Shown here one piece after another: positions 29,284 through 43,421 of a stretch of DNA of 51,442 nucleotides. The stretch comes from an uncultured SAR86 cluster bacterium (GTDB lineage: Bacteria; Pseudomonadota; Gammaproteobacteria; Magnimaribacterales; AG-339-G14), in assembly GCA_902561325.1 (NCBI GenBank), contig CACEOL010000001.1, forward strand, positions 220,209 through 271,650, given 5' to 3'. The notes beneath the pieces are model-generated. The model was not told the DNA's origin and did no database searches. It worked only from the letters and a program-made list of their open reading frames with translations. How positions within the stretch are numbered: the stretch's first letter is position 1; each line of letters begins with the position of its first letter. Position numbers and translations under genes: made by a program.

Positions 29284-30852
29284 ATGATTGATACCGAAGT
29301 TTTAATAATTGGCGGCGGTGCTGCTGGATTAACTGCAGCAATTGAACTAAGTCAGAATTACAAAGTATCTGTAATTTCAAAAGAAACTATTGTTGATAGC
29401 TCTACTTGGTATGCACAAGGAGGAATAGCAGCAGTAATGGGAGAAAAAGATACGGTCGAAGAGCATATTGCTGATACCTTGGAGGTTGGAGATGGAATTT
29501 GTAATGAAGATGCTGTTGCCCACTGCGTAAAAAATAGTAAATCAGCTATAGATTGGCTTATTGAGATGGGAGTTAACTTTACAATGACGCAAAATGGAGA
29601 AAAATTGCATCTTACTCAAGAAGGCGGTCATTCAAAAAGACGTGTTGCGCATTCTGAAGATACCACTGGCAAAGAGGTTTCAAATTCTTTAATAGCTAGA
29701 GCAAGAAAAATAAAAAACATAACAATTTATGAAAATCATCTTGCGGTTGATTTGATAACAAGTAATAGGTCTTGCCTGGGAGCATACGTATTCGATAAGA
29801 AAAAAGAACAAGTAGTAACTTTTAAGTCAAATGCAACAATTCTGGCATCTGGAGGAGCAAGTAAGGTTTATTTATATACTAGCAATCCAGATGGAACGAG
29901 TGGCGATGGTATGGCACTGGCTTGGCGGGCTGGATGCGAATTATCTAATATGGAATTTAACCAGTTTCACCCAACTTGTCTTTATCATCCAGAAGCAAAA
30001 TCTTTTTTAATTAGTGAAGCTTTAAGAGGTGAAGGAGCTTATTTACTAAATCATGAAGACGAAAGATTCATGAAAAAGTATCACAAAAAAAATGAGTTAG
30101 CTCCAAGAGATATAGTGGCTAGATCAATTGACGAAGAAATGAAAAAAACAGGTAAAGACTATATGTTTCTTGATATTAGCCATAAGCCAAAAAATATGAT
30201 TTTAAAATCATTTCCTGCAATTCATAAAAAATGTTTGAGTTATGGATTTGATATCACAAAAGACAAAATACCCATTGTTCCCGCAGCTCACTACTCATGT
30301 GGCGGTGTTAAGACAGGCTTATCAGGTGAAACAAACATCAAGAATCTCTATGCTATTGGAGAAACAGCATGCACTGGGCTGCATGGTGCCAACAGAATGG
30401 CAAGCAACTCCTTACTAGAATGTGTTGTTTTTGCAAAGTCTGCAGCTTTGAATATCGAAAAGAATTTTGATGTAAACAAGAAAAAACTTAAGGAATGGGA
30501 TTCTTCAAAGGTTATAAGATCAGGGGAGAATGTTCTTATCTCTCATAATTGGGATGAAACCAGGCGATTGATGTGGGACTACGTTGGCGTTGTTAGATCA
30601 AATGATCGGTTGTTAAAAGCAAAAGAAAAGATAAAAATCATTCAAAATGAAGTAGAGAGTTTTTACAAAAACTTTGAGTTAAATTCAGATTTTATTGAGT
30701 TGAGAAATTTGGTTTTAGTTGCGAGGCTAATCATAGAAAGTGCTATTTTGAGAAAAGAAAGCAGAGGTCTTCACTACAACATAGATTTCCCAAATAAAAT
30801 TAGAAGAGGATCTTCTTCAGTAATTTCAAAGAAAGAACTTAAAGTTGCTTAA
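29284..30852 (+). CDS. nadB: L-aspartate oxidase
   Basis: A 522-residue FAD enzyme that oxidises aspartate to iminoaspartate, the first step of de novo NAD synthesis. The dinucleotide motif VLIIGGGAAGLTAAIEL is at the N-terminus. It is followed by STWYAQGGIAAVM, the flavin-binding EEHIADTLEVGDGIC region and the catalytic EGGHSKRRVAHSEDTTG. FNQFHPTCLYHPE and the late IGETACTGLHGANRMASNSL distinguish NadB from succinate dehydrogenase. nadA and nadC are not in the window. Its 3' end overlaps the convergent CBS gene by 14 bases. Confidence 0.97.
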   Translation: MIDTEVLIIGGGAAGLTAAIELSQNYKVSVISKETIVDSSTWYAQGGIAAVMGEKDTVEEHIADTLEVGDGICNEDAVAHCVKNSKSAIDWLIEMGVNFTMTQNGEKLHLTQEGGHSKRRVAHSEDTTGKEVSNSLIARARKIKNITIYENHLAVDLITSNRSCLGAYVFDKKKEQVVTFKSNATILASGGASKVYLYTSNPDGTSGDGMALAWRAGCELSNMEFNQFHPTCLYHPEAKSFLISEALRGEGAYLLNHEDERFMKKYHKKNELAPRDIVARSIDEEMKKTGKDYMFLDISHKPKNMILKSFPAIHKKCLSYGFDITKDKIPIVPAAHYSCGGVKTGLSGETNIKNLYAIGETACTGLHGANRMASNSLLECVVFAKSAALNIEKNFDVNKKKLKEWDSSKVIRSGENVLISHNWDETRRLMWDYVGVVRSNDRLLKAKEKIKIIQNEVESFYKNFELNSDFIELRNLVLVARLIIESAILRKESRGLHYNIDFPNKIRRGSSSVISKKELKVA

Positions 30853-31237
30853 TTAAATCTCGCATGGAAAGAACCCCAACAAGCTTTTCTTTATCCATTA
30901 CTGCAAGGTGACGAATCTGATTTTCCATCATTAAATCCAGAGCTTCCAGTTTTGTACATTGAGGCGTAACGCTAATAATATTTTTAGACATTATTTCTTT
31001 GACTTCATTATTTAAGGCTTCTTTTCCTTTTCTTGCAATAAGCTCAATTACATCTCTTTCTGTAAGAATACCTTCAAGATCTTGAGGATCATTTGTATCG
31101 GAACAATATACTAGTAGAGCTCCGATTCTATTTTTATCCATTATTCTGCATGCATCTTCAATAGAAGAGTTTCTTGCAACAGCAAATATGTCCCAATATC
31201 TTTGGTTTAAAAGCAATGATTCTATGTTTTCGGACAT
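30839..31237 (-). CDS. CBS-domain protein
   Basis: A 132-residue protein consisting of two CBS motifs (about residues 13-70 and 78-132) that form one Bateman module. Recognisable pieces are IEDACRIMDKNRIGALLVY with GILTERDVIELIARKG, and ISVTPQCTKLEALDLMMENQIRHLAVM with GVLSMRDLIKQL. Such modules bind adenine nucleotides and act as energy sensors, but no partner enzyme is attached here. It is a single gene facing nadB, sharing 14 bases at the 3' ends. Confidence 0.9.
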   Translation of the reverse strand: MSENIESLLLNQRYWDIFAVARNSSIEDACRIMDKNRIGALLVYCSDTNDPQDLEGILTERDVIELIARKGKEALNNEVKEIMSKNIISVTPQCTKLEALDLMMENQIRHLAVMDKEKLVGVLSMRDLIKQL

Positions 31238-31298: not shown

Positions 31299-31682
31299 AT
31301 GATATTTAAAAAAGGAATTAAATTATTGTCTCTATCTATTCTTTTCTTGGGAGTAAGTTCCCTACTGCATGCAGATAAGGGCTTTATTACTGTCGACGGA
31401 AAAAACATTGAAATGGATGTTGAAAGACAATATCAAGCACCTGCAAGCTATCCTAGAAAAGCTTTGAGACTTGCTAAAGAAGGTTATGTAATTGTTGAAT
31501 TTGACGTCAGCGCGGATGGTGATGTGATAGATCCCTTCGTTTTAGAAAGCGAACCTGCAGGACTTTTTGATAGAGCTGCAATGAAATCTATTAGAAAATG
31601 GATTTACCAGCCACCAATCTATGAAGGTGTGCCTGTCCAAGTAAATGATGTGCAAGTTAAATTATCTTTTCGAGTTCAATAA
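31299..31682 (+). CDS. Free periplasmic TonB C-terminal-domain protein
   Basis: A 127-residue protein with an N-terminal signal sequence (residues 1-25, cleavage probably after LHA) and a single TonB C-terminal domain. The domain starts at PASYPRKALRLAKEGYV (residues 48-64) and contains GLFDRAAMKSIRKWIYQP, closely parallel to the same block of the TonB at 6146-6892. There is no proline linker and no other membrane anchor. If the signal is cleaved the protein is free in the periplasm, and otherwise it is tethered without ExbB contact. It lies 22 bases before the hybrid kinase gene and is probably co-transcribed with it. Its role is unknown. Confidence 0.85.
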   Translation: MIFKKGIKLLSLSILFLGVSSLLHADKGFITVDGKNIEMDVERQYQAPASYPRKALRLAKEGYVIVEFDVSADGDVIDPFVLESEPAGLFDRAAMKSIRKWIYQPPIYEGVPVQVNDVQVKLSFRVQ

Positions 31683-31704
31683 GATTTTCAATTTTTGCGC
31701 GTAA

Positions 31705-34698
31705 ATGCGTATCAGAACAGTATTAATTGGGATTGGTCTAGCAGGAAACTTACTGCTAGCCCTCTCCTTATTTTTTCTGTTCAACTACAGAGATACAACT
31801 CAAAAAAGCTTTGCTAATGAATCTTTAGTTTCTACCTATGAAGCTGCATGGTTTCAAACTCTCGAAACTTCAATTGATGCGATTTCTGCTTGGCTTCCGG
31901 TAACTGGAGAAAGAGGTAATTTTTGGGATCCTGAAAACCCCATTTACCCTGAAGAAGAGCTTTCCTCGCCTGATGACTCATATGCCAACCCATTAATACA
32001 ATTCATCACAGATAAAAACATTGGAGAAGCAGGATATCTTCTAGATTTAATGTTTGAATTTGATTTGGATGAGGGAAATTTAAGTTTTATCAAAGCTTAT
32101 TATCCAGATGGACAAAGATTTTATTGTGCCAGTGCCCTAGATTTATCTGGTATTGACGCATGCAACCCTCAAGCAAAAAACGAATACGATGAAAATCTTG
32201 AAAAATTTCTTGTTGATGCAGGAAAAAGGCCAAGAAGATTTCTTCAAAAGATCATAGACTCGTCTGGAGAAAAAATCTCTACCTTAAACCAAATGATGGC
32301 CTTCCCTATAAAGGCTTTTAGCAGAAATGCTGAAGCAATTATTGTAATGGGAATTGATGTAAGAAAGTCTATGGAATCCTTTGGAGATGAATTTGAACTC
32401 GTTAGTGCAGTTCAAACAGAAGAAGGAATCATTTCGTTAGGTGATGATTATGCAAGATACGAATCAGGCTTGGAATCGGATGAAACTTCTAATTTTGGAA
32501 TTTCTAATATTAAAGGCCATGTCGATAAGGCAAATTTAAACTTAGAAGAATTTGGAAATAGGACTTCTTCGAGAGATTCAGATTTAGGTTCCCTTATAAC
32601 ACTGCTTCCATTAAGTTCATATCTTTCATCAGATAAAGCACAATTATTTATTTTTAGAGATGAAAGAGAAAGTATCGCTCAAGAAAAAGCAATCTTAAAT
32701 ACAATTTACATAATAATTACTATAGTTATTTTCTTAGTGATTGCTTTAACTTCAGTAATCTTGGCCAATGTTTTTGGATCGGTAAATAAAGCAATTGAAG
32801 TTTTACAGGCTCTTACAAGCGGAGACTTATCCAAAACCATGCCGCAGAGAAGAGGTCTTTTAAGATCTGAAAATGATGAGGTCGGTGAGCTTGCTAAAGC
32901 TCTAGAAATATATAGAGGTCATCTCAATGAGATGGAAAATATAAGAACTGAGCAGGCGCGCAGAAGAAAAGAAAGAGACACTGCAATCATAGAAAAAATG
33001 AGTATTCTTGCTGATGAGCTTGAAGGAGATTCAAGAACTTTAATTCTTAACGATATTAATAAAATGCAAAATCTCGCTCAAGAAAGCTCGCAGGATAAAG
33101 GAGAAGAAGCTTCAGTTGAATTAATGACAGTTGCATTCACAAGGATGGCAGATGAAGTACAAGTTCTCATAGATACAAGAACTAAAGAGATGGAAGAGTC
33201 TCGTGATGAAGCGCTAGAGGCTAATGAACAAAGAAGTAAATTTTTTGCCAATATGAGTCACGAACTCAGAACGCCATTGAATGCAATTTTAGGTTACGGC
33301 GAAATGCTTTACGAGGAATGTGAAGATTTAGGTTATGAAGATTTAATGCCTGATCTTAAGAAGATTACTACTTCTGGAACACATCTCTTGTCCCTGATTA
33401 ATAATATTTTAGACCTTTCGAAAATAGAATCAGGGAAAATGGAGCTTTTCATAACCAGCTTTGAAATTGAAAAAGTGGTAGAAACTCTAAGAGACATCAA
33501 TGCGCCGCTGGCAGCCAAAAATGACAATGGTTTCAAAATAAATATTCAAGAAGCTATAGGATCAATGTCCCAGGACGAAACAAAACTCAGACAGTGTGTT
33601 ACAAATTTCTTAAGCAATGCCTTCAAATTTACTAGCAATGGCCTAATTACCTTAGATGTTACTTCTTTCATGAAGGATGAAATTGAGATGATTGAATTCA
33701 AGGTAACTGATGATGGAGAAGGTATGAGCGAAGAGGGAGTAGCAAAAGTCTTTGAAGAATATGAGCAAGCTGAAAGATCTACCTCTGCAACTCATGGCGG
33801 AACTGGTCTGGGTCTGCCGATAAGTAAAAGATTTGCAGAATTAATGGGAGGTGGCGTAACAGTATCAAGTGAGAAAGGGGTTGGGTCAGTATTTTCGATT
33901 TTTATTCCTAGAATTTGTGATGAATCTGAAGAACTTGAAAATGATGAAATATCCTCCTTAGACGGCGAAAACTTATGCGTGCTTATTGATGATGATATAG
34001 CAATGCATGACTTAATAAAAAGAACAGTAAAAAAAGCAGGCATGACATTAATTGGAGCAACTAATGGCGAACAAGGCTTAAGTATGATTAGAGAATCAAA
34101 GCCAAAGCTTATTTTATTAGATGTGTTAATGCCCGGTAGAGATGGCTGGTCAATTTTAAAAGAATGCAAATCTGACGAATCAATAAAAGATATTCCAGTG
34201 ATAATGGTTTCCCAAATGTCACAAGAGTCTTTGGCATTTTCTCTAGGAGCAGATGATTACCTTACCAAGCCAATTGATCGTGACAAATTCCTTAAAACGG
34301 TAACCAACTTGCTTGGAAACTCAACAAACAAAAAAATCTTAATTGTTGATGATGATTCAAACACAAGAGATATTTTAGGTAGAGCTTTAAGTGATGCGGG
34401 ATACGAAGCCTTTTTAGCTAAAGATGGAAGAGAAGGACTAGATAATTTGGATAAAAATCCAGCGCTTATTGTCTTAGATCTAGAAATGCCTCGCATGGAT
34501 GGTTTTGAATTTTTAGAAAACTTTGTTGAGATGGATTTTGAAGATAAACCTAATATTCTTGTTTATTCAGGAAAAGATCTATCAGAAGTACAAGAAGAAC
34601 TTCTTAGAAAAAATGTTTCTGGTCTGGTTAAAAAGGATGAAGTTTCTATTAATCAACTTCCAGGAATGGTTACTAAAATATTAGGTTCTAAGAGCTAA
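31705..34698 (+). CDS. Membrane hybrid histidine kinase with two receiver domains
   Basis: A 997-residue sensor kinase. Order of parts: membrane helix 1 (about 5-27), periplasmic sensor region (about 28-330) with two cysteines near residues 145-155 (FYCASALDLSGIDACN), helix 2 (about 332-356), and HAMP (about 357-412). A coiled coil then leads to the HisKA domain with FFANMSHELRTPLNAILGYG (His519). The ATPase domain has its N box (FLSNAFKF), DDGEGMS and GGTGLGLPIS. Two receivers have phospho-acceptors Asp806 (ILLDVLMPG) and Asp925 (IVLDLEMPR). Catalytic parts look intact. The stop interlocks in CTAA at 34695-34698 with the single-receiver gene on the other strand. The signal sensed is unknown. 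Confidence 0.95.
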   Translation: MRIRTVLIGIGLAGNLLLALSLFFLFNYRDTTQKSFANESLVSTYEAAWFQTLETSIDAISAWLPVTGERGNFWDPENPIYPEEELSSPDDSYANPLIQFITDKNIGEAGYLLDLMFEFDLDEGNLSFIKAYYPDGQRFYCASALDLSGIDACNPQAKNEYDENLEKFLVDAGKRPRRFLQKIIDSSGEKISTLNQMMAFPIKAFSRNAEAIIVMGIDVRKSMESFGDEFELVSAVQTEEGIISLGDDYARYESGLESDETSNFGISNIKGHVDKANLNLEEFGNRTSSRDSDLGSLITLLPLSSYLSSDKAQLFIFRDERESIAQEKAILNTIYIIITIVIFLVIALTSVILANVFGSVNKAIEVLQALTSGDLSKTMPQRRGLLRSENDEVGELAKALEIYRGHLNEMENIRTEQARRRKERDTAIIEKMSILADELEGDSRTLILNDINKMQNLAQESSQDKGEEASVELMTVAFTRMADEVQVLIDTRTKEMEESRDEALEANEQRSKFFANMSHELRTPLNAILGYGEMLYEECEDLGYEDLMPDLKKITTSGTHLLSLINNILDLSKIESGKMELFITSFEIEKVVETLRDINAPLAAKNDNGFKINIQEAIGSMSQDETKLRQCVTNFLSNAFKFTSNGLITLDVTSFMKDEIEMIEFKVTDDGEGMSEEGVAKVFEEYEQAERSTSATHGGTGLGLPISKRFAELMGGGVTVSSEKGVGSVFSIFIPRICDESEELENDEISSLDGENLCVLIDDDIAMHDLIKRTVKKAGMTLIGATNGEQGLSMIRESKPKLILLDVLMPGRDGWSILKECKSDESIKDIPVIMVSQMSQESLAFSLGADDYLTKPIDRDKFLKTVTNLLGNSTNKKILIVDDDSNTRDILGRALSDAGYEAFLAKDGREGLDNLDKNPALIVLDLEMPRMDGFEFLENFVEMDFEDKPNILVYSGKDLSEVQEELLRKNVSGLVKKDEVSINQLPGMVTKILGSKS

Positions 34699-35060
34699 GC
34701 TCCTAAATTTGACTCAATCTTTTCCAAAAGCCTCTTAAAATCAACTGGCTTTGTATCAAAATCATCTGCCCCGCATTCCAAAGCTTTTTGTCTATCGTGC
34801 TCCATTGCGTGAGCAGTTAAGGCAATAATCGGAATATTTGAAATTTCTGGATCCGCTTTTGCCTGAGTGGTAGCCTCCCAACCATCTAGGACAGGAAGAC
34901 CCATATCCATTAAAACTAAGTCTGGGCTTTCCGATTTCATCTTATCAAGCCCTTCCTGACCATCAAAAGCAAAAATAACATCGTATTCTCTTCTAGTTAG
35001 TCTTCTGCCTAACATATCACGATTCATTTCATTATCTTCAACGTAAAGAATCTTTTTCAT
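34695..35060 (-). CDS. Single-domain response regulator (receiver only)
   Basis: A 121-residue CheY/DivK-like receiver. The acidic pocket is in YVEDNEM, the phospho-acceptor is Asp52 (LVLMDMGLPVLDG), the conserved Thr is in IIALTAHAM and the Lys in FDTKPVD. It has no output domain, so it probably shuttles phosphate or binds a partner. It is the last gene of the minus-strand group and faces the hybrid kinase, which is its most likely partner. It lies 11 bases after the DHp-REC-GGDEF gene. Confidence 0.93.
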   Translation of the reverse strand: MKKILYVEDNEMNRDMLGRRLTRREYDVIFAFDGQEGLDKMKSESPDLVLMDMGLPVLDGWEATTQAKADPEISNIPIIALTAHAMEHDRQKALECGADDFDTKPVDFKRLLEKIESNLGA

Positions 35061-35071
35061 AACACTCTCCC

Positions 35072-36526
35072 TCAGTTATAAATAAACTGATTTCTTCCCC
35101 CTTCTTTTGCTTTGTAGAGCCTTTCATCTGCAAGATTAACAAGTTCTTCTTGATCCTTAACCTCAGATGAATTAATTACTCCTCCACTTATAGTAATATT
35201 TATTTCAACATCTTGAAAGGGTATTGATAATTCAACTACAGCTTTTCTAATATTCTCACAGTAATCGTTTAAGCTCATTCCTTCTTTATTTTCTAAAACT
35301 GCAATAAATTCTTCCCCGCCTACTCTGCCAATAACATTTTCACCGCATGCATCTCTTAAACCACTAGCAACAGCTTTCAGAACTTCATCGCCTCCTGGAT
35401 GCCCGTATGTATCATTTATGGACTTAAAAAAATCTATATCCATTGAAAGTAAAGAAAATTCATAATCTTTTTCTTTATTCAATTTCTCAAAACATTCCTC
35501 GATTTTATCAAAAACAACCTGCCTATTATAAATTCCAGTTAAAGGGCAAGTTGTTGCTTTAAGATTTAATTCTTTTAATAATTCTTGTTCTCTTGCTCTG
35601 AAATATTTTGCCTCTAAGCTGGCAATTGATTTCGCCATTAAAATTGTTCCATTCAATGGTTTAGGGAGATAATCTGAGGCACCTAATTTTATACATTTAG
35701 CTGTGCTATCAACATCATTGAATGCCGAAACCATGATGATTGGTAGCTCATCTCTATCGTGATTCTTTCTAAATCTTTTGAGGAGCTCTAATCCATTAAT
35801 ATCCGGTAACATTACATCTAATAATATTAAATCAGGAGTTTTAGTTTCTACTTCAGCAATTGCTGAAGTGCCATCTATAGCCACTCTGCATGAAAGTCCA
35901 TTTTGAGAAAGCCTTCTCTCTAAAACCTCGCAATTCGTTTTATTATCATCAACAATTAACACATCGGACCCTTTCAGGTAATCATCTATATCCAAGCTAT
36001 AGTCAATATCGCCTAAAGATCTGAATAGCGACTCAGCATTTTGAATTTGGCCTTGTTCGGAATCTTCAGCTGCCTTTTCATTAAGATCACCTTTAATAAA
36101 ATCTACAAACCTTTCTATAGCAGTTTCTGTTTCTCTTGATAAGGAAAGAATTGTATTTAAATCTTTAATGCATTCTTCCGATAAATCGTCCTCAAAATCT
36201 TCCATGAGTATCTCGCTATAACCAATAATTGCATTTAAAGGTGTTCGCAGGTTGTGCCTTAATTCTGAGTATTCTTGCGATGTTTTAGCTTGCTTATCTA
36301 CAGCTGTGTTTTCTCTAAAGGCTTCTTCGTACTGACTTAAAAGCTTATCTTCAGCCTCTTTGATTTGGTTAATCTCTGAACTGATATCAAGATTATTTTT
36401 AACTCCAAACTCTTCAACCAAATCAATGTACTGTTCGATAGCTTCAGCTGGAGCAGCGAACTCTTGTTTTATTTGTGCTAATAATATTTTTTCTGCACCT
36501 TTTGAAGGCTTTTCCAGACCAGTCAT
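35072..36526 (-). CDS. DHp-REC-GGDEF diguanylate cyclase without a kinase ATPase domain
   Basis: A 484-residue protein. An N-terminal helical region (1-80) leads to a histidine-kinase dimerisation domain with LRHNLRTPLNAIIGYSEIL (His91). No ATP-binding domain follows. The next part is a receiver (about 187-305, DDN at 195-197, phospho-acceptor Asp238 in ILLDVMLPD, Lys290 in YLPKPLN). The last part is a GGDEF domain (about 325-485) with metal Asp364 in SMDIDFF, GHPGGDEVL and the signature GGEEF at 404-408. The RxxD inhibitory site is absent at the expected place. It should make cyclic di-GMP, possibly gated by phosphate on Asp238. It starts in a TAATG junction with the EAL gene and has an excellent ribosome site. 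Confidence 0.93.
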   Translation of the reverse strand: MTGLEKPSKGAEKILLAQIKQEFAAPAEAIEQYIDLVEEFGVKNNLDISSEINQIKEAEDKLLSQYEEAFRENTAVDKQAKTSQEYSELRHNLRTPLNAIIGYSEILMEDFEDDLSEECIKDLNTILSLSRETETAIERFVDFIKGDLNEKAAEDSEQGQIQNAESLFRSLGDIDYSLDIDDYLKGSDVLIVDDNKTNCEVLERRLSQNGLSCRVAIDGTSAIAEVETKTPDLILLDVMLPDINGLELLKRFRKNHDRDELPIIMVSAFNDVDSTAKCIKLGASDYLPKPLNGTILMAKSIASLEAKYFRAREQELLKELNLKATTCPLTGIYNRQVVFDKIEECFEKLNKEKDYEFSLLSMDIDFFKSINDTYGHPGGDEVLKAVASGLRDACGENVIGRVGGEEFIAVLENKEGMSLNDYCENIRKAVVELSIPFQDVEINITISGGVINSSEVKDQEELVNLADERLYKAKEGGRNQFIYN

Positions 36527-37620
36527 TAAAATCCCTCCTTAAAATCTTTCAAAAACTGGGGTCTATGATGAAAATATCCTTGTCCTTTATGACACCCAAG
36601 CTCTAAAAATGTTTTTTCTTGTTCCTCAGTTTCAATTCCTTCGGCCAACATCCCTAGCTCCATGTTGTTACAAATTGTCACAACAAATCTAACAAGCTCT
36701 TGAGTATCTTGTTCGGAAACTGTTCTAGAAAAATCCTTGTCAAGCTTTACAAGAGTAATCGGCAAGTCTCTTAAATAACTCAATGAAGAGTAACCGGCTC
36801 CAAAATCATCCAGCGCAAGAGGTATCCCATGTTTTTTTAGTTTTTCAAAATACTCTGATGCTCTTGATCTGTCTTCAAGCTCTGCAGTTTCGGTTATTTC
36901 TAAGCCTAAGTCACCTGGATTAAGATCATTTTCTTTTACAAAATCTAAAATCAAGTTACAAAAGTTTTCTTGCATAACAGTATAAGCAGAGACGTTTAAA
37001 TAAACTGTAAAATCTAATTTTTTGTCTTTCTTGAATACAAAGATTTCCTTTAATTTCTGCATTGATGCAAGAACTACCAGAGAGAATAAGCTTTCTCCCT
37101 CAACTAAAGGAATTAATTGATCGTTTGGAATGATGTCTCCGTTTTCGTCTTTTAGTCTTAGAAGGGTTTCTACGCTAACCAAATCTCCCGTAGCAAGGTC
37201 ATATTGTTTTTGGTAAGCCATATCTATTCGATTATTTTCTAGACAAGAAATAGTATTTTTTAAAGCGTTTAAAGCCGCCTCAGACTGTGCTAATACCTCT
37301 ATTAAAAAGAAAGATTCTTCTTTGTCTAAAGGGATTTCATGGATTCTTGATCTTAATAAAAATTTTATTTCTCTTAAGGAAAGTTCTAGGTCCGATTGAA
37401 AAGACGAGCCAATGGCTTCTATTTTCTTAGACGTACCGTGAGACAATATTGGAGCGATGCCGATATCATTTATTTCAGACGTATCAAAAACATATTGAGC
37501 GGATTTATTCATCCATTCTACTCCAACATCTTTACAAAAAATTAGATATGGACTGGGATGATGTTCCAGGGATTTAATTAAATATTTAGCTTGTTGGTCT
37601 TCAATTATTGTCATCTTCAA
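36526..37620 (-). CDS. EAL-domain cyclic-di-GMP phosphodiesterase
   Basis: A 364-residue protein. Residues 1-115 look like a divergent PAS-type sensory region (SPYLIFCKDVGVEWMNKS), and residues about 120-360 form an EAL domain. The name motif is ETL (Glu151, in VETLLRL). The other catalytic positions are kept: Asn209 (YLNVSA), Glu241/Glu244 (LEITET), Asp271-Asp272 (LDDFGAGYSS), Lys292 (LVKLDKDF), Glu327 and Glu330 (AEGIET) and Gln347 (KGQGY). It should therefore be active in hydrolysing cyclic di-GMP. The gene starts 20 bases inside the upstream membrane-protein gene and ends in the start codon of the cyclase gene. This gives an opposed enzyme pair in one transcript. Confidence 0.92.
   Translation of the reverse strand: MKMTIIEDQQAKYLIKSLEHHPSPYLIFCKDVGVEWMNKSAQYVFDTSEINDIGIAPILSHGTSKKIEAIGSSFQSDLELSLREIKFLLRSRIHEIPLDKEESFFLIEVLAQSEAALNALKNTISCLENNRIDMAYQKQYDLATGDLVSVETLLRLKDENGDIIPNDQLIPLVEGESLFSLVVLASMQKLKEIFVFKKDKKLDFTVYLNVSAYTVMQENFCNLILDFVKENDLNPGDLGLEITETAELEDRSRASEYFEKLKKHGIPLALDDFGAGYSSLSYLRDLPITLVKLDKDFSRTVSEQDTQELVRFVVTICNNMELGMLAEGIETEEQEKTFLELGCHKGQGYFHHRPQFLKDFKEGF
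36533..36540 (-). promoter_or_regulatory. Consensus Shine-Dalgarno sequence for the GGDEF gene, inside the EAL gene
   Basis: AAGGAGGG on the minus strand lies six bases before the ATG at 36526. It is within the last codons of the EAL phosphodiesterase gene and is the strongest ribosome site I noticed in the window, which suggests that the cyclase is translated at a high rate relative to the phosphodiesterase. Confidence 0.75.
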
Positions 37621-38068
37621 TTAGTTCCTCTACAACTTCAACGAAGCTATCATTAAATGTATTTTTCATAAAAGACCATAGCTTCAAATGATATTCTGAT
37701 TTGAAAAGCGTTTTAAAAGATCTTTTGTAATTATCCCATTCCCCCTTATCAATCATGCCTATTGTGTATTGATAATGTTGGTTTTCTCTAGACCTTAACA
37801 TTATGCTGAAATACGACGTATATTTAGCATCTTCTTCCGGAGTCAAATCCTCATCATTTCGAAGCTTAAGCTTAATTTTAACCATGCTTTTCTTCATCCC
37901 TTCTAATGCAATTTCTTGATGACTATCAGCAACATTCTGCCTAGCATTTGCTCTTGCGACTCTATTCTGCTCTCTCATTTCTTGAATTAAATAATAAATT
38001 GAAGCTATAGCACCAATTGCTGCCAACGCTGTAACAATGCTATTAAAGTACTCAATTAAAAATTCCAT
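37601..38068 (-). CDS. Small N-terminally anchored protein heading the EAL/GGDEF operon
   Basis: A 155-residue protein with a hydrophobic N-terminal helix (about 9-28, IVTALAAIGAIASIYYLIQ). A basic, mostly helical cytoplasmic part follows (REQNRVARANARQNVADSHQ) and an acidic tail (FVEVVEELIEDDNN). It is the first gene of the minus operon and overlaps the EAL gene by 20 bases. I do not recognise a named family, though short proteins with this layout occur widely in marine proteobacteria. It may be a membrane anchor or adaptor for the cyclic-di-GMP enzymes, which is inference from position alone. Upstream are 144 non-coding bases shared with the sugar-gene promoter region. Confidence 0.75.
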   Translation of the reverse strand: MEFLIEYFNSIVTALAAIGAIASIYYLIQEMREQNRVARANARQNVADSHQEIALEGMKKSMVKIKLKLRNDEDLTPEEDAKYTSYFSIMLRSRENQHYQYTIGMIDKGEWDNYKRSFKTLFKSEYHLKLWSFMKNTFNDSFVEVVEELIEDDNN

Positions 38069-38212: not shown

Positions 38213-39418
38213 ATGTCTGAAACTGAAAAAAAAGTATTTTATGCAGAAGCAAATTATTCTGAAGAAGAAATAAATGCAGTTTTAAAAGTTCTAAATGAAA
38301 ATAGATTAGCCTTGATGGCGGGTCCTAATGTAAAAGAACTTGAGAAAAAAGTAGCTAAACTTTTTAATAAAGAATTTGGGCTGATGGTAAATAGCGGATC
38401 GTCTGCAAATCTTTTAGCAGTCCAATCATTAGAATTAAAAGAGGGCTCAAAAGTTATTACGCCCGCGCTAACCTTTTCAACCACCATCTCTCCCTTAGTA
38501 CAAAGTAATTTAATTCCCTTTTTTGTAGACGTAGAAAAAGAAACTCTTCAAATTGACACGAAAAAAATGAAGGAAATGCCTTTGGAGGATGTATCTGCTA
38601 TATGTGTGCCAAACTTGATTGGCAATATTGCAAATTGGAATGAAATATACAATTTTGCCTCTGAAAATAATCTAAAAGTAATAGAAGATTCAGCAGACAC
38701 AATTGGCTATGAATACAAAAGTGACTTTGAGAATTGGGCTGATGTAACAACCACAAGCTTTTATGCCTCGCATGTTGTAACCGGAGCTGGATTTGGCGGA
38801 ATGGTTTGTTTTAATGAGAAAAAAAATTATGAACTTGGATTATCTCTGAGAGGATGGGGAAGAAGATCTTCTTTGTACGGAGAATCTGAAGACTATGAAA
38901 GAAGATTCAGTGCAAAGATTGATGGGTTAGATTACGATGACAAATATATTTTTGATGATATCGCTTACAATTTTTTACCTTCAGAAATCTCAGCTGCTTT
39001 TGCACTAATTCAAATAAATAAACTTGATCAAAATGTCAAAAACCGATTAGATAATTATAATTATCTCAAAAAGGGTCTTGAAAAATCATCAGATTTTTAT
39101 GTGCCCTCTTCTTATGAGAATGCTAAAACAGGATGGCTAGCGTTCCCAGTAATTTTTCAAAATGAACTTGCAGACAAAAGAAAAGACATTCAAATATTTT
39201 TAGAAAAAGCTGGGATACAAACCAGAACTATATTTACTGGAAATATTTTGAGACAGCCTGTTGCTAAGAAATTCAAATGGGAAAGTTTTGATGACTTTCA
39301 TGTAAGTGACGAAATCATGAAATCTGGAATTCTTTTAGGTTGTCACAATAGACAAACAAAAGAAAAACTTGATTACACTTTAGAAAAGCTATTTGAAGCA
39401 GAAAGTTGTCTGAAATAA
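38213..39418 (+). CDS. DegT/DnrJ/EryC1/StrS-fold protein, RfbH-like sugar 3-dehydrase candidate
   Basis: A 401-residue fold-type I PLP protein. VNSGSSANLLAV (59-70) and VIEDSADTIG (157-165, Asp159 for the PLP ring) are standard. At the Schiff-base position the sequence reads TTSFYASHVVTGAG, with His187 (codon 38771-38773) replacing lysine. That substitution marks sugar 3-dehydrases of the RfbH/E1 and ColD type rather than aminotransferases. The following LRGWGRRSS...ERRF stretch aligns by memory with the E1 region carrying the iron-sulfur cysteines, but has none of them. It may remove the 3-hydroxyl of a nucleotide sugar. It leads a plus-strand trio with an SDR and a cupin. Confidence 0.85.
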   Translation: MSETEKKVFYAEANYSEEEINAVLKVLNENRLALMAGPNVKELEKKVAKLFNKEFGLMVNSGSSANLLAVQSLELKEGSKVITPALTFSTTISPLVQSNLIPFFVDVEKETLQIDTKKMKEMPLEDVSAICVPNLIGNIANWNEIYNFASENNLKVIEDSADTIGYEYKSDFENWADVTTTSFYASHVVTGAGFGGMVCFNEKKNYELGLSLRGWGRRSSLYGESEDYERRFSAKIDGLDYDDKYIFDDIAYNFLPSEISAAFALIQINKLDQNVKNRLDNYNYLKKGLEKSSDFYVPSSYENAKTGWLAFPVIFQNELADKRKDIQIFLEKAGIQTRTIFTGNILRQPVAKKFKWESFDDFHVSDEIMKSGILLGCHNRQTKEKLDYTLEKLFEAESCLK

Positions 39419-40224
39419 TTCATACCACCGGAATTACTGGCTTTATCGGAAGAAACCTTCTTCCGCTCTTATTAAAAAAATACAGAAAGGTCATAAACCA
39501 TAATAGGAAATCTAAAAAAACTACATATACTCTTTATACTTCAGATGGAATAGAAGAAATTAATTTTTGTGATCCTTCGCCTATTCTTCTTCATTTAGCA
39601 ACGAACTATAATCCAAATCCTAAAAGTATTGAGGAAGAAAAAGAAATAAGAGAGGCAAACTATTTTTTTCCAAAAAATATTGCTGCTAATTTCAGCAAAG
39701 TCATTTCTATATGTAGTTATCAACAGCTTTTAGGTGAAAAGTATCAAAATTTGTACTCAGAAACTAAAACGGAATTTAATGAATGGTGTCAATCAAAGGT
39801 TGATCAATTTATAAAAATTTATCTTTTTGATTCTTTTGGTTATGGGGATACAAGAAATAAAGTCGTAGATGTTTTTATTAAAAATTCTATTGAATCAAAA
39901 GATTTATTTATACCTGAAACTAATGTAGAAATTAATCTTACTGAAGTTTCTGAGATTGCAAATGGAATTATGAAATCTATAGATCTTCCCAGCGGAAGTT
40001 ATTCTTTAAAATCGGAAAATAATATAGCTCTTGTAGACCTTGCCAGAAAATTAATTGAATTTACTAACTCGAACTCTAAAATTATTGAGAAAGGGAAAAT
40101 AATCAATTTAATAAGTAAAATAAACAACGAACCTGAAAATATTTATGAAAGTATTAATAATCTTTCTTTTGATGACCAACTGAGAAATAGGATAGATGAA
40201 ATTAAAAAAACCGAAGGTCTTTAA
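39406..40224 (+). CDS. NAD-dependent sugar epimerase/dehydratase (extended SDR)
   Basis: A 272-residue SDR. It starts with TTG at 39406, overlapping the upstream gene by 13 bases. The nucleotide-binding motif TGITGFIGRNL is at residues 8-18. The catalytic Ser is in ISICSYQQ and the YxxxK pair is in LYSETKTEF. The protein is short for an epimerase (usually about 310-340) and the C-terminal substrate domain is reduced, as in reductases of 4-keto sugars. It could be the reductase finishing the dideoxysugar. No exact substrate can be given. It overlaps the cupin gene by 29 bases. Confidence 0.85.
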   Translation: MSEIIHTTGITGFIGRNLLPLLLKKYRKVINHNRKSKKTTYTLYTSDGIEEINFCDPSPILLHLATNYNPNPKSIEEEKEIREANYFFPKNIAANFSKVISICSYQQLLGEKYQNLYSETKTEFNEWCQSKVDQFIKIYLFDSFGYGDTRNKVVDVFIKNSIESKDLFIPETNVEINLTEVSEIANGIMKSIDLPSGSYSLKSENNIALVDLARKLIEFTNSNSKIIEKGKIINLISKINNEPENIYESINNLSFDDQLRNRIDEIKKTEGL

Positions 40225-40705
40225 AAAATACTTCAATTCCTTTCTTGACCCAAGAGGATTTCTTTCAGCTATAGATCTTGAGAATTTAGAAAAAAAACTT
40301 CAAATTAAATTTAAATATCAATTGGTTTCCTTAAGTGAAAAAAAACATACCTTCAGGGGATTTCACTTTCAAAAGAAACCTAAAGCCCAAAATAAAATAG
40401 TAATCGTGCATAGCGGTAAAATCCTAGATTTTGTTGTTCAAATTGACTCGCCTTTAAGTTCTCAGGTTAAAAGTTTTGAATTAACTGCCGGAGACGTCAT
40501 AGCCATCCCACATGATTATGCTCATGGATTTTTGTCTTTAACGAATAATGTAATTATTCAATATTTATTGGACAATAAATTTTCTGCCAAAAACTATAGC
40601 GGTTTTAACGCTAATTCTTTTATTAAGGAGAAGTTCCCTAACAGAAAAATAACTATATCCAAGAAAGATAAAAGCTTGAAAGACAAAATTTTAATAGAAA
40701 ATTAA
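40196..40705 (+). CDS. dTDP-4-dehydrorhamnose 3,5-epimerase-like cupin (RmlC family)
   Basis: A 169-residue RmlC-type cupin. Conserved pieces are [10 protein letters not shown], the HTFRGFHFQ block with the catalytic-type histidine, [18 protein letters not shown], and [12 protein letters not shown]. The tyrosine that follows in [12 protein letters not shown] corresponds to the acid residue of RmlC. It is somewhat shorter than RmlC (about 180) and divergent, so it may be a 3-epimerase, a 3,5-epimerase or a ketoisomerase. It ends the plus-strand trio, and its stop interlocks with the rfbA stop in TTAA at 40702-40705. Confidence 0.85.
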
Positions 40706-41580
40706 TCATTCAATAAATTGAGTAAATATTGTCCGTAATAATTCTTTAATAAAGGCTGAGCTAAATCTTCTAAATCTTTTTTGCTTATCAACTTTCCTTT
40801 AAAAGCTATTTCTTCAGGACAACAAATCATTTGTCCCTGCCTTTTCTGAATAGTTTCTATAAAAGAACTTGCCTCAAGAAGGCTCTCATGTGTTCCAGTG
40901 TCAAGCCAAGCAAATCCTCTATCTAAAACTTCAACTTTTAAATTTCCTTGATCAAGATAATGCTTATTAACATCAGTAATTTCTAATTCTCCTCGTTTTG
41001 AAGGCTTTAATGATTTTGCTATATCAACTACTGTACTGTCATAAAAATAAAGCCCGGTTATGACAAAGTTGCTTTTGGGTTTTTTGGGTTTCTCTTCAAT
41101 GCTTAGTGCTTTTTTTTGACTGTCTATCTCTACTACTCCATATCTTTCCGGATCATTTACATGGTATGCAAATACCGTAGGCTCTGATTGAGAAGAAACA
41201 GACAAAAGTTTATGTTCAAGTTCAGAGCCAAAAAATAAATTATCTCCCAAAATAAGGGCACAGTTCTCACCAGAAATAAACTTTTCTGAAATTATGAAAG
41301 CTTGTGCTATTCCTTCAGGTTTTTTTTGAATTTCGTAGGAAATGTCTATGCCCCATTGGTTCCCATTTCCCAATAATTCTACAAACTTATCGTTATCTTC
41401 AGGCGTTGTAATTATTAGGATGTCTCTTATTCCTGCAAGCATTAAAGTACTTATTGGATAGTAGATCATGGGCTTATCATAGACAGGTAATAATTGCTTA
41501 GAGATGCTTTTCGTAATCGGATATAAACGAGTACCCGATCCTCCGGCTAAGATAATTCCTTTTCTATTCTCTTTGCTCAT
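40702..41580 (-). CDS. rfbA: Glucose-1-phosphate thymidylyltransferase
   Basis: A 292-residue RmlA enzyme that makes dTDP-glucose. The nucleotide-binding signature [20 protein letters not shown] and the [13 protein letters not shown] segment are near the N-terminus. [12 protein letters not shown] and the product-site VIEEKP-type sequence [13 protein letters not shown] follow, and [18 protein letters not shown] is near the end. All are standard for this enzyme and the length is exact. It is downstream of rfbB with a six-base gap, and together they supply dTDP-4-keto-6-deoxyglucose. Confidence 0.97.
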
Positions 41581-41586
41581 AGGTTT

Positions 41587-42585
41587 CTACTCTAGAATAT
41601 TTAGATACCACTCTACTGTTTTTTTCAATCCTGATTCAAAGTTTTCTTTTGGAGTCCAATTAAGTTCTTTTTCAATTTTTGAAATATTTAGCCCATATCT
41701 ATAATCATGTCCTAATCTATCATCAACAAAAGTGATTAATTCGTGATAAGAATCACCATCTTTTTTAGGACTTAACTCATCCATCAAATCACATACTTTT
41801 TTGACAACTTCGATATTTTTTATTTCGTTTTTTCCTCCAATGTTGTAAGTTTCTCCATTAATTCCTTTTTCGAGAACAACTGTTAGAGCATCGCAATGGT
41901 CTTCAACAAATAGCCAATCTCTTATATTTAATCCATCACCATAAATAGGTAATTGTTTATTTTCTAAACAATTATGGATTAATAATGGAATTAATTTTTC
42001 CTTGTGTTGGAAAGGACCATAGTTATTTGTGCAGTTTGTAGTGATGGTAGGCAAACCATATGTCTCATGCCAAGCTCGCACTAAATGATCTCCTGATGCT
42101 TTTGATGCTGAATAAGGACTATTTGGGAAATAGGCACTGTCTTCAGAAGATTGTGGATCAGAATCCAAGAGCGAACCGTAAACTTCATCAGTTGATATTT
42201 GAATATATTTAAAATTATCTTTTTTAGATTGTTCTAGTTTATTAAAAAAATCATAAGATGCTTTAAGCAAGATGTGGGTTCCAATTATATTCGTTGATAT
42301 AAATTCATTAGAATCAACTATAGACCTGTCAACGTGGGATTCAGCAGCAAAGTTAATTACAGTTTGAGGCTGGTATTTTTGTAAAAGGGAAGAAACTAGG
42401 GAAAAGTCTTCTATAGAGCCTTTCTCGAAAAAGTAATTTTTGTTATCTCTAATTGAATCTAAATTTTTTTGATTTGCAGCATAGGTAAGATTGTCTAAAT
42501 TTACTATAGGCAAGTCATTTTTTTGAAGCCATTTGATAATAAAGTTAGCTCCTATAAAACCACATCCACCTGTAACTAAAATCAT
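41587..42585 (-). CDS. rfbB: dTDP-glucose 4,6-dehydratase
   Basis: A 332-residue extended SDR of RmlB type. The Rossmann motif MILVTGGCGFIGANF is at the start. AAESHVDRSI is followed by the characteristic STDEVYGSL with the acid pair and by YSASKASGDHLVRAW with the YxxxK. TNCTNNYGPFQHKEKLIP and LFVEDHCDAL complete the family pattern. It turns dTDP-glucose into the 4-keto-6-deoxy intermediate that is the branch point for many deoxysugars. It starts two bases after the glycosyltransferase gene and is followed by rfbA. Confidence 0.97.
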   Translation of the reverse strand: MILVTGGCGFIGANFIIKWLQKNDLPIVNLDNLTYAANQKNLDSIRDNKNYFFEKGSIEDFSLVSSLLQKYQPQTVINFAAESHVDRSIVDSNEFISTNIIGTHILLKASYDFFNKLEQSKKDNFKYIQISTDEVYGSLLDSDPQSSEDSAYFPNSPYSASKASGDHLVRAWHETYGLPTITTNCTNNYGPFQHKEKLIPLLIHNCLENKQLPIYGDGLNIRDWLFVEDHCDALTVVLEKGINGETYNIGGKNEIKNIEVVKKVCDLMDELSPKKDGDSYHELITFVDDRLGHDYRYGLNISKIEKELNWTPKENFESGLKKTVEWYLNILE

Positions 42586-42587
42586 CT

Positions 42588-43421
42588 TTAATTCTCGTTA
42601 AGGCCGCTCAAGACTCCTTGATAGAAGGCAAAATACTTAAATCTTTTTCTTTTAGAAAATAACATTTGCAATGAAAATAATTGAATTAATGCTAGAAATA
42701 AGCACTTAAAACGATAGTTTTTAATCATATGTTTTTTCATAGCATAAACCCTTGATCTGCCCATGTGAAATCCTTTTAGTTTTGCAATCTCTGGACTCCT
42801 TAAGGAAGAATTACCTCCAACATGAATGATAGATGTATCAGGACAATAAATTAAAGGTCCAATTTCATTTTTAAGCCTTAAAGATAAGTCATCATCTTCG
42901 TGATAAAGAAAAATTCTTTCATCAAAGCCTCCAACTCTAATAAAAACCTCTTTCTTAATAAAAATAGCGGCGCCTCCCATTACTGGAATTTCGCTTATCT
43001 TACTTGGAGGAGTTTTTAACCATTTATTTTTGTCTAACAGTATTGAACGTCTTTTAAAGCTCTCTGTTTTTTTTTGATTTAATATTTTTGGAGTAAAAGC
43101 TGAGGCTTCAGGCATCTTTTCTGATAATTCTAAAAGCTTAATAACAGTATTATTTTCAAAAACAGTATCTGGATTAACAATAAAAACATAATCTTTTCTG
43201 GCTGCTTTTACCCCAATATTGCATGCTGAACCAAAACCTTTATTTTCAGAATTCAAAATTTCAGAAAAATTTCTTATCTCTTTTATTTTTTCAGGCAAAG
43301 GAGAATCATTATTTACAATAATTGTTTCGCACTCTAGGGGAATTGATGGCAGTAAATTTGAAAGTGCTTCTTCGCTTTTAAAACTTACAATTACTATTGA
43401 TACATTTGAACAATCAAGCAC
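42588..43421 (-). CDS. Family 2 glycosyltransferase, rhamnosyltransferase-like
   Basis: A 277-residue GT-A fold transferase. VSIVIVSFKSEEAL starts the domain. ENKGFGSACNIGVKAA and VFIVNPDTVFEN (DxD-type Asp-Thr metal site) follow, then MGGAAIFIKKEVF and FLYHEDDDLSLRL with the catalytic base region. This is the pattern of WbbL-like rhamnosyltransferases that use dTDP-sugars. The C-terminus is basic with a hydrophobic stretch (KCLFLALIQLFSLQML), probably membrane-associated. Placed directly before rfbB and rfbA, it likely uses the sugar they and the plus-strand trio make. Confidence 0.9.
   Translation of the reverse strand: MLDCSNVSIVIVSFKSEEALSNLLPSIPLECETIIVNNDSPLPEKIKEIRNFSEILNSENKGFGSACNIGVKAARKDYVFIVNPDTVFENNTVIKLLELSEKMPEASAFTPKILNQKKTESFKRRSILLDKNKWLKTPPSKISEIPVMGGAAIFIKKEVFIRVGGFDERIFLYHEDDDLSLRLKNEIGPLIYCPDTSIIHVGGNSSLRSPEIAKLKGFHMGRSRVYAMKKHMIKNYRFKCLFLALIQLFSLQMLFSKRKRFKYFAFYQGVLSGLNEN

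Follow-up and report, generated by a model that had tools for sequence, protein, structure and literature searches.

Two described signaling systems come closest to the locus analyzed here. In the DivJ/PleC-DivK-PleD system of alphaproteobacteria, a membrane kinase is combined with a lone receiver, DivK, whose gene adjoins that of a receiver-diguanylate cyclase (PMC7003649, in the part of that paper on which we draw), and the Spo0F-Spo0B-Spo0A system of sporulation consists of a kinase, a lone receiver, a phosphotransferase of the dimerization and histidine phosphotransfer (DHp) type and an output receiver, with the same order of steps that we propose below (PMC6136694, likewise in part). Here, we examine a 51,442-nucleotide stretch of DNA from an uncultured SAR86 cluster bacterium (hereafter, "the window"; GenBank assembly GCA_902561325.1, contig CACEOL010000001.1, positions 220,209 to 271,650), in which six adjacent genes at 31299-38068 encode a hybrid histidine kinase, a lone receiver, a diguanylate cyclase, a cyclic-di-GMP phosphodiesterase, a TonB-domain protein and a protein of 155 amino acids (aa). 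The original prediction for this locus could name no known system composed of just these genes, and the literature, as judged from titles and the openings of abstracts, agrees. Publications on SAR86 and cyclic di-GMP or two-component signaling describe no such cassette in their titles and the starts of their abstracts, the main text of the isolate-anchored SAR86 study PMC11582366 contains none of the terms two-component, kinase, signal, regulat, GGDEF or motility, and matches in the literature on the named domain architectures were confined to one paper on Firmicutes.

Our analysis indicates that the cassette is apparently the entire machinery with which this SAR86 genome makes, breaks and switches cyclic di-GMP. 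We further hold, with slightly more belief than doubt, that it is a system of the SAR86 lineage in which cyclic di-GMP would be switched by a multistep phosphorelay. That the six genes form a single dedicated unit, as originally predicted, is strongly supported by genomics, through a conserved neighborhood and through EAL and GGDEF domains present as sole copies. Gene content, gene order, the conserved catalytic residues and the sole-copy status are carried by the sequence.

The source genome of the window (1.17 Mb in 25 contigs, 86.7% complete) contains one EAL and one GGDEF domain in total, both within the cassette, and five receiver domains, four of them in the cassette. The fifth belongs to an NtrC-like protein (553 bits versus a model cut-off of 558.6, for the piece scanned), whose gene adjoins an NtrB-like kinase gene recognized by eye. 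Across 203 genomes of the order, many of them incomplete, EAL occurs in 79 and GGDEF in 78, each as a single copy; both are found in 77, neither in 123 and only one of them in 3, and among the 40 best genomes EAL is present in 20 and GGDEF in 19. The two domains lie on the same contig in 76 of the 77 genomes, with starts 1.2-1.7 kb apart, and on two contigs in G024. A real separation was ruled out for both genomes with EAL only, since the contig end is reached in G028 and, by coordinates, too little contig lies to the left of EAL in G055; for the genome with GGDEF only (G056), it was set aside by likeness to locus L139, which is in the same state and cut at a contig end. In the order as a whole, the two domains are thus far retained or lost together.

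The cassette consists of two convergent gene sets, for which domain calls are from Pfam, with NCBIfam models scanned in addition. On the plus strand, the gene for a small TonB_C-domain protein of 127 aa (31299-31682; Pfam TonB_C, E 1.7e-18, 67.2 bits) is followed by that of a membrane hybrid histidine kinase (31705-34698), to which Pfam assigns HisKA, HATPase_c and two Response_reg domains and which, with the alignment, reads as a sensor, a DHp domain (His519), a catalytic ATP-binding (CA) domain and two receivers, REC1 (Asp806) and REC2 (Asp925). On the minus strand are the genes for the 155-aa protein, which has a hydrophobic N-terminus and no Pfam or NCBIfam family (37601-38068); the EAL cyclic-di-GMP phosphodiesterase (36526-37620; Pfam EAL, E 2.8e-51), of which the N-terminal ~125 aa have no domain assignment; the diguanylate cyclase (35072-36526); and the lone receiver (34695-35060; one Response_reg, Asp52). 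Pfam finds HisKA, Response_reg and GGDEF but no HATPase_c in the cyclase, which is thus a DHp domain (His91) without CA, joined to a receiver (Asp237) and a GGDEF domain with the motif GGEEF. The EAL gene starts with TTG and overlaps the 155-aa gene by 20 bases.

Much of what had been predicted for these genes stands: all six open reading frames (ORFs) are where they had been placed, Pfam confirms four receivers, one cyclase and one phosphodiesterase, and the overlap claimed for the EAL and GGDEF genes is a single shared base, 36526. Two claims hold in part. Of the two supposed kinase-type histidines, both sit in DHp domains and are invariant in 36 of 36 sequences, but His91 is probably no kinase site; and for the supposed membrane protein at 37601-38068, the evidence is a hydrophobic N-terminal helix.

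The same gene order, which the original prediction suggested looking for in related genomes, was found there, and the homologues are not scattered. Among 36 loci taken by place, all six genes are present in 32, and a contig end cuts the other four. Named genomes, scanned with the cyclase alignment and two peptide patterns, yielded 78 loci, labeled in their records as SAR86 (66), Gammaproteobacteria (7), Proteobacteria (2), SAR92 (2) and Thermodesulfovibrionales (1); as both patterns derive from SAR86, absence outside SAR86 is weak evidence. SAR86A, SAR86B and the closed TMED112-A1 chromosome are among the loci found, and the Thermodesulfovibrionales locus is a weak match to the receiver only. 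In 60 of 77 named loci (L103-L179), six intact genes stand in the order TonB> kinase> REC< cyclase< EAL< 155-aa<; 14 more are cut by contig ends with the order kept, and as far as the contigs reach the order is unbroken in 75 of the 77. At the SAR92-labeled loci L138 and L165 there is room for a 155-aa gene, but it is undetectable and other ORFs take its place. The TonB-domain gene is always directly 5' of the kinase where the contig extends that far. The counts for the 36 and the 77 loci are not independent because many contigs are identical, and a single assembly contributed two ends, L136 and L176. When the window is compared with seven relatives, the ratio of nonsynonymous to synonymous divergence (dN/dS) can be computed for 30 of 42 gene pairs, with values of 0.01-0.13; the other 12 are saturated. 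Since the order recurs in related loci and dN/dS is low, the cassette is more than a chance arrangement. As a separate observation, the kinase ORF is in three pieces at L078, one of the 32 complete loci, and at L140 (G079), with the remainder of the cassette intact.

These counts bear on the possibility that the two halves are independent circuits, the kinase signaling elsewhere via its own receivers and the cyclase-EAL pair lying outside its control. The two operons are indeed on opposite strands. However, their linkage is unbroken at 32 of 36 and 60 of 77 loci, the rest being cut or short of one gene, while the flanks change; EAL and GGDEF are never apart except in three draft genomes; and no kinase partner for the four receivers was seen besides NtrB. 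We consider separate circuits very improbable.

The cassette enzymes look active, judging from an alignment of 36 sequences at positions that we take to be catalytic. In the kinase, His519 and the Glu that follows it are present in 36/36, and Asp806 and Asp925 in 35/36, with one gap; Asp52 of the lone receiver is present in 36/36; His91 and Asp237 of the cyclase are invariant (36/36), as is its GGEEF motif apart from one unread residue; and in the EAL protein Glu151 is found in all 36 and seven more active-site positions in 35, with one gap. The Arg and Asp of the cyclase inhibitory site occur in one sequence of 36 each; that site is therefore missing.

On the reading that we favor, a periplasmic cue, perhaps via the TonB-domain protein, would act on the sensor of the hybrid kinase, which would autophosphorylate at His519, its two receivers serving as intermediate or brake. 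Phosphate would pass to Asp52 of the lone receiver, acting as a shuttle, and from there to His91 of the cyclase, whose CA-less DHp domain would serve as a histidine phosphotransferase; it would then move to Asp237 of the same protein, and that receiver would activate the GGEEF dimer. The EAL enzyme, translated together with the cyclase, would remove the product, and a receptor, perhaps the 155-aa protein, would give the response. The histidine phosphotransfer (Hpt) domain PF01627 was found in 0 of the 203 genomes of the order (the control was positive in 8 of 14; the window genome is 86.7% complete), so that only a DHp would be available as the middle histidine of a relay. His91 is likelier to be a phosphotransfer site than a kinase site, because the protein has no ATP-binding domain and the residue after His91 is N in 30 and D in 6 of the 36 sequences where its kinase counterpart is E in 36/36.

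The pattern of conservation points the same way. Between SAR86 families, the most conserved parts are the kinase DHp domain (75-89% identity) and the lone receiver (73-80%), the latter being the best-conserved whole protein of the cassette, against 42-56% for GGDEF, 45-66% for EAL and 27-56% for the sensor; the remaining values are 53-69% for kinase REC1, 47-63% for REC2, 56-73% for the cyclase DHp domain, 35-66% for the 155-aa protein and 41-51% for the TonB-domain protein. From the His onward, 17-21 of 30 residues are the same in the kinase and cyclase DHp domains (five loci). Docking of the lone receiver on both DHp domains would produce such a pattern.

Relatives of this arrangement occur outside SAR86. 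In a class-wide search of 369 genomes, with at most four candidates scored per genome, the cyclase profile has matches at 1e-60 in ten genomes outside SAR86. Three of these, from one gammaproteobacterial family (f35; L184/L196, L186/L198, L187/L197), match on the DHp-REC part, and in each a lone receiver 59-63% identical to that of SAR86 adjoins a DHp-REC protein with one or two DHp domains. In these proteins, the DHp-REC part leads into a class III nucleotide cyclase (by Pfam on two, by eye on the third), in contrast to the GGDEF output of SAR86. One of the three stretches also has a kinase as a neighbor: at 12710-17210 of L197, a two-receiver kinase, a lone receiver and a protein that reads DHp-DHp-REC-class III cyclase stand side by side. 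The f35 stretches that were read contain no TonB-domain, EAL or 155-aa neighbor. We count the co-occurrence of the lone receiver and the DHp-REC part in three genomes of another family in favor of the relay. As the same two components are joined there to a class III cyclase, the chassis appears to be of a wider kind with its second messenger exchanged, which suggests that the signaling chassis stays while the second messenger is exchangeable in evolution. The other seven of the ten genomes match over REC-GGDEF only; in one gammaproteobacterium (G384), positions 1459-3609 of L185 carry a DivK-like lone receiver, an adjacent cyclase and a further receiver ORF, and this cyclase reads by eye as REC-REC-GGDEF, PleD-like, with no DHp match.

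The last example leads to the main alternative, in which the locus is of the DivJ/PleC-DivK-PleD type: the kinase would phosphorylate the lone receiver and the cyclase receiver directly, with no relay through His91, the lone receiver being an allosteric modulator of the kinase like DivK and the cyclase DHp domain a dimerization or docking element only. Among solved structures, the lone receiver and the cyclase REC-GGDEF part are closest to PleD and DivK: in sequence searches of the PDB, the former matches PleD REC1 at 2e-24 and DivK at 5e-20, and the latter PleD at 9e-47. In C. crescentus and A. tumefaciens, moreover, divK and pleD form one operon and kinases act on both, according to the part of PMC7003649 used here. 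His91 and the LRTP that follows it, on the other hand, are invariant in 36/36 sequences, beyond the needs of a dimerization helix, and the cyclase-type relatives in f35 retain RHDLRTP.

Receiver surfaces divide the evidence. An aromatic residue on strand 5 has been tied to allosteric output receivers (PMC9981736, in the part considered). At this position the cyclase receiver has Tyr in 36/36, and kinase REC2 has Gly in 35/36, which suits an intermediate. Kinase REC1 has Tyr in 34/36 and the lone receiver Phe in 35/36, so that neither is marked as a mere intermediate, and the output-type residues of the lone receiver and cyclase receiver favor the DivK-PleD type. Because the aromatic residues in the lone receiver and REC1 do not sort the receivers, that alternative keeps substantial odds; we regard it as possible, though rather doubtful.

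Several further points, like the aromatic residues of REC1 and the lone receiver, weigh against the phosphorelay. The H-box is common to many kinases, so the likeness of the two DHp domains is partly generic. Six of the 36 cyclases have an Asp after the His. The kinase CA domain (60-73%) and the cyclase receiver (56-82%) are likewise well conserved, and a DivK-like adaptor would account just as well for the conservation of the lone receiver. In the single-contig genome G006, the EAL ORF (L088, 8691-9302) ends at 203 aa, with a frame change near residue 195, beside an intact cyclase; this truncated EAL fits the gap in the EAL alignment and reflects either a genuine loss of the phosphodiesterase or a fault in the assembly. 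Finally, the phosphate transfers of the relay, along with its cue and its receptor, are inferred throughout.

For the output of the cassette, we looked at a few families of receptors. PilZ (PF07238) occurs in 0 of the 203 genomes of the order (control positive in 5 of 14), and MshEN (PF05157) is absent from the window genome; in the order, MshEN is found, weakly, in 9 of 203 genomes at E <= 0.001, with five matches above the cut-off, and two of the nine genomes (G064, G079) have an EAL gene. The c-di-GMP-I riboswitch (RF01051) has no match in the genome, but the control genomes were silent too. The 155-aa protein is a candidate receptor or membrane partner. Its structural model is all helix (predicted local distance difference test score, pLDDT, 87), a fold search gave nothing usable (best E 2.5), and Pfam on 27 members of its alignment found no consistent family; the class-wide search of 369 genomes detected it in five, of which three belong to SAR86 and the other two are weak matches (5e-10, 9e-6).

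The lack of PilZ throughout the order and of MshEN in the window genome also fits a scheme without any separate receptor, in which cyclic di-GMP would act on the kinase as in CckA and the phosphorylated lone receiver would be the output. CckA responds to cyclic di-GMP (PMC7003649, in the part cited above), the structure matches listed include the CckA CA domain in complex with cyclic di-GMP, and the lone receiver is strongly conserved. Yet a cyclase and a phosphodiesterase kept for feedback alone would be costly in a small genome, and the receptor searches covered few families. We find this scheme improbable.

On the input side, the TonB-domain protein and its relatives have a signal-like N-terminus by eye, and we propose that this protein is a periplasmic partner of the kinase sensor. 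It scores 59.3 bits against TIGR01352 (cut-off 27.1); it is not a full-length TonB, having 127 aa and scoring 44.2 bits with the best TonB equivalog model against a cut-off of 265. The sensor has no Pfam family in 26 members, with weak HAMP in 7. The kinase model has a mean pLDDT of 71, and VIA-align returned kinase and receiver chains; such matches barely test the sensor, and we therefore claim no sensor fold. TonB-dependent transporters are abundant in all SAR86 families (PMC11582366, in the part drawn on for this point), and we infer that the small TonB-domain protein may report on them. A fuller picture, which we offer tentatively and think rather unlikely as a whole, would be a cassette kept or lost whole, with a Spo0-like relay closed by the fused DHp domain, a receptor of a new type (the 155-aa protein being the first candidate) and a TonB-linked sensor of outer-membrane transporter activity. 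If true, a heterotroph abundant in the ocean would couple its nutrient uptake to cyclic di-GMP.

The surroundings of the cassette are variable. Around the 61 cassettes in which the genes at both ends are present, the largest neighboring ORFs within 2.5 kb sort into 13 clusters to the left and 19 to the right. While other flanks change, a CBS-pair gene adjoins 49 of the 61, and it may for this reason count as a seventh, optional member. In the window, this gene lies at 30839-31237 on the minus strand (Pfam) and diverges from the TonB-domain gene. Directly to the right of the cassette (38213-43421) are sugar-nucleotide and glycosyltransferase genes, including a DegT aminotransferase, an epimerase, RmlC-, RmlA- and RmlB-like genes (RmlA and RmlB named by eye) and a GT2 gene. 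The original prediction saw no biofilm structural genes in the window, which is partly right given this sugar cluster. A role of the cassette in serving the sugar genes was rejected, as RmlA/RmlB-like neighbors are confined to 6 of the 36 related loci, each from family f1. Promoter and terminator scans gave 18 and 6 matches against shuffle means of 26.1 and 4.7, and an Rfam search of the window found no match.

In an unrooted tree of four joined proteins (36 rows), each of the four SAR86 families falls on one side of one branch, with support of 99-100; family f3 holds one long row. Transfer of the cassette between SAR86 families was rejected, each family being split off by one branch, and the tree, unrooted as it is, fits a unit that was present early and has repeatedly been lost as a whole. 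Between L070 and the window, the synonymous divergence dS is 0.36 for the TonB-domain gene and 0.84 for the kinase, with the four minus-strand genes saturated, a contrast that points to a possible recombination breakpoint within the cassette.

In many of the bacteria that have been studied, cyclases and phosphodiesterases are so numerous that their individual roles are hard to discern. The free-living organism considered here seems to have a complete system in a single cyclase, a single phosphodiesterase, a single kinase and a single lone receiver. The SAR86 cassette makes the purpose of minimal cyclic-di-GMP signaling a testable question, as it does two others: what reads cyclic di-GMP without PilZ, and which cue is sensed by what is nearly the only two-component system of the genome.

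In its plan, the SAR86 cassette resembles DivK-PleD on the output side and Spo0F-Spo0B-Spo0A in the proposed relay, as a variant. As in DivK-PleD, the lone receiver gene is next to a receiver-GGDEF gene, an order kept in the relatives. PleD, however, is REC-REC-GGDEF, whereas the SAR86 cyclase is DHp-REC-GGDEF and falls below the NCBIfam PleD model (207.5 bits versus a cut-off of 474). Unlike DivJ and PleC, the SAR86 kinase carries two C-terminal receivers, and its score with the NCBIfam DivJ model is likewise below the cut-off (125 bits versus 1000). The cassette also adds the EAL, TonB-domain and 155-aa genes, and it seems to be the only such system of its genome. With Spo0 it shares the set of components, namely a kinase, a lone receiver, a CA-less DHp domain and an output receiver, with His91, Asp52 and Asp237 each present in 36/36. 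It differs from Spo0 in that the putative phosphotransferase and the output receiver are fused, the output is GGDEF rather than DNA binding and the genes are clustered.

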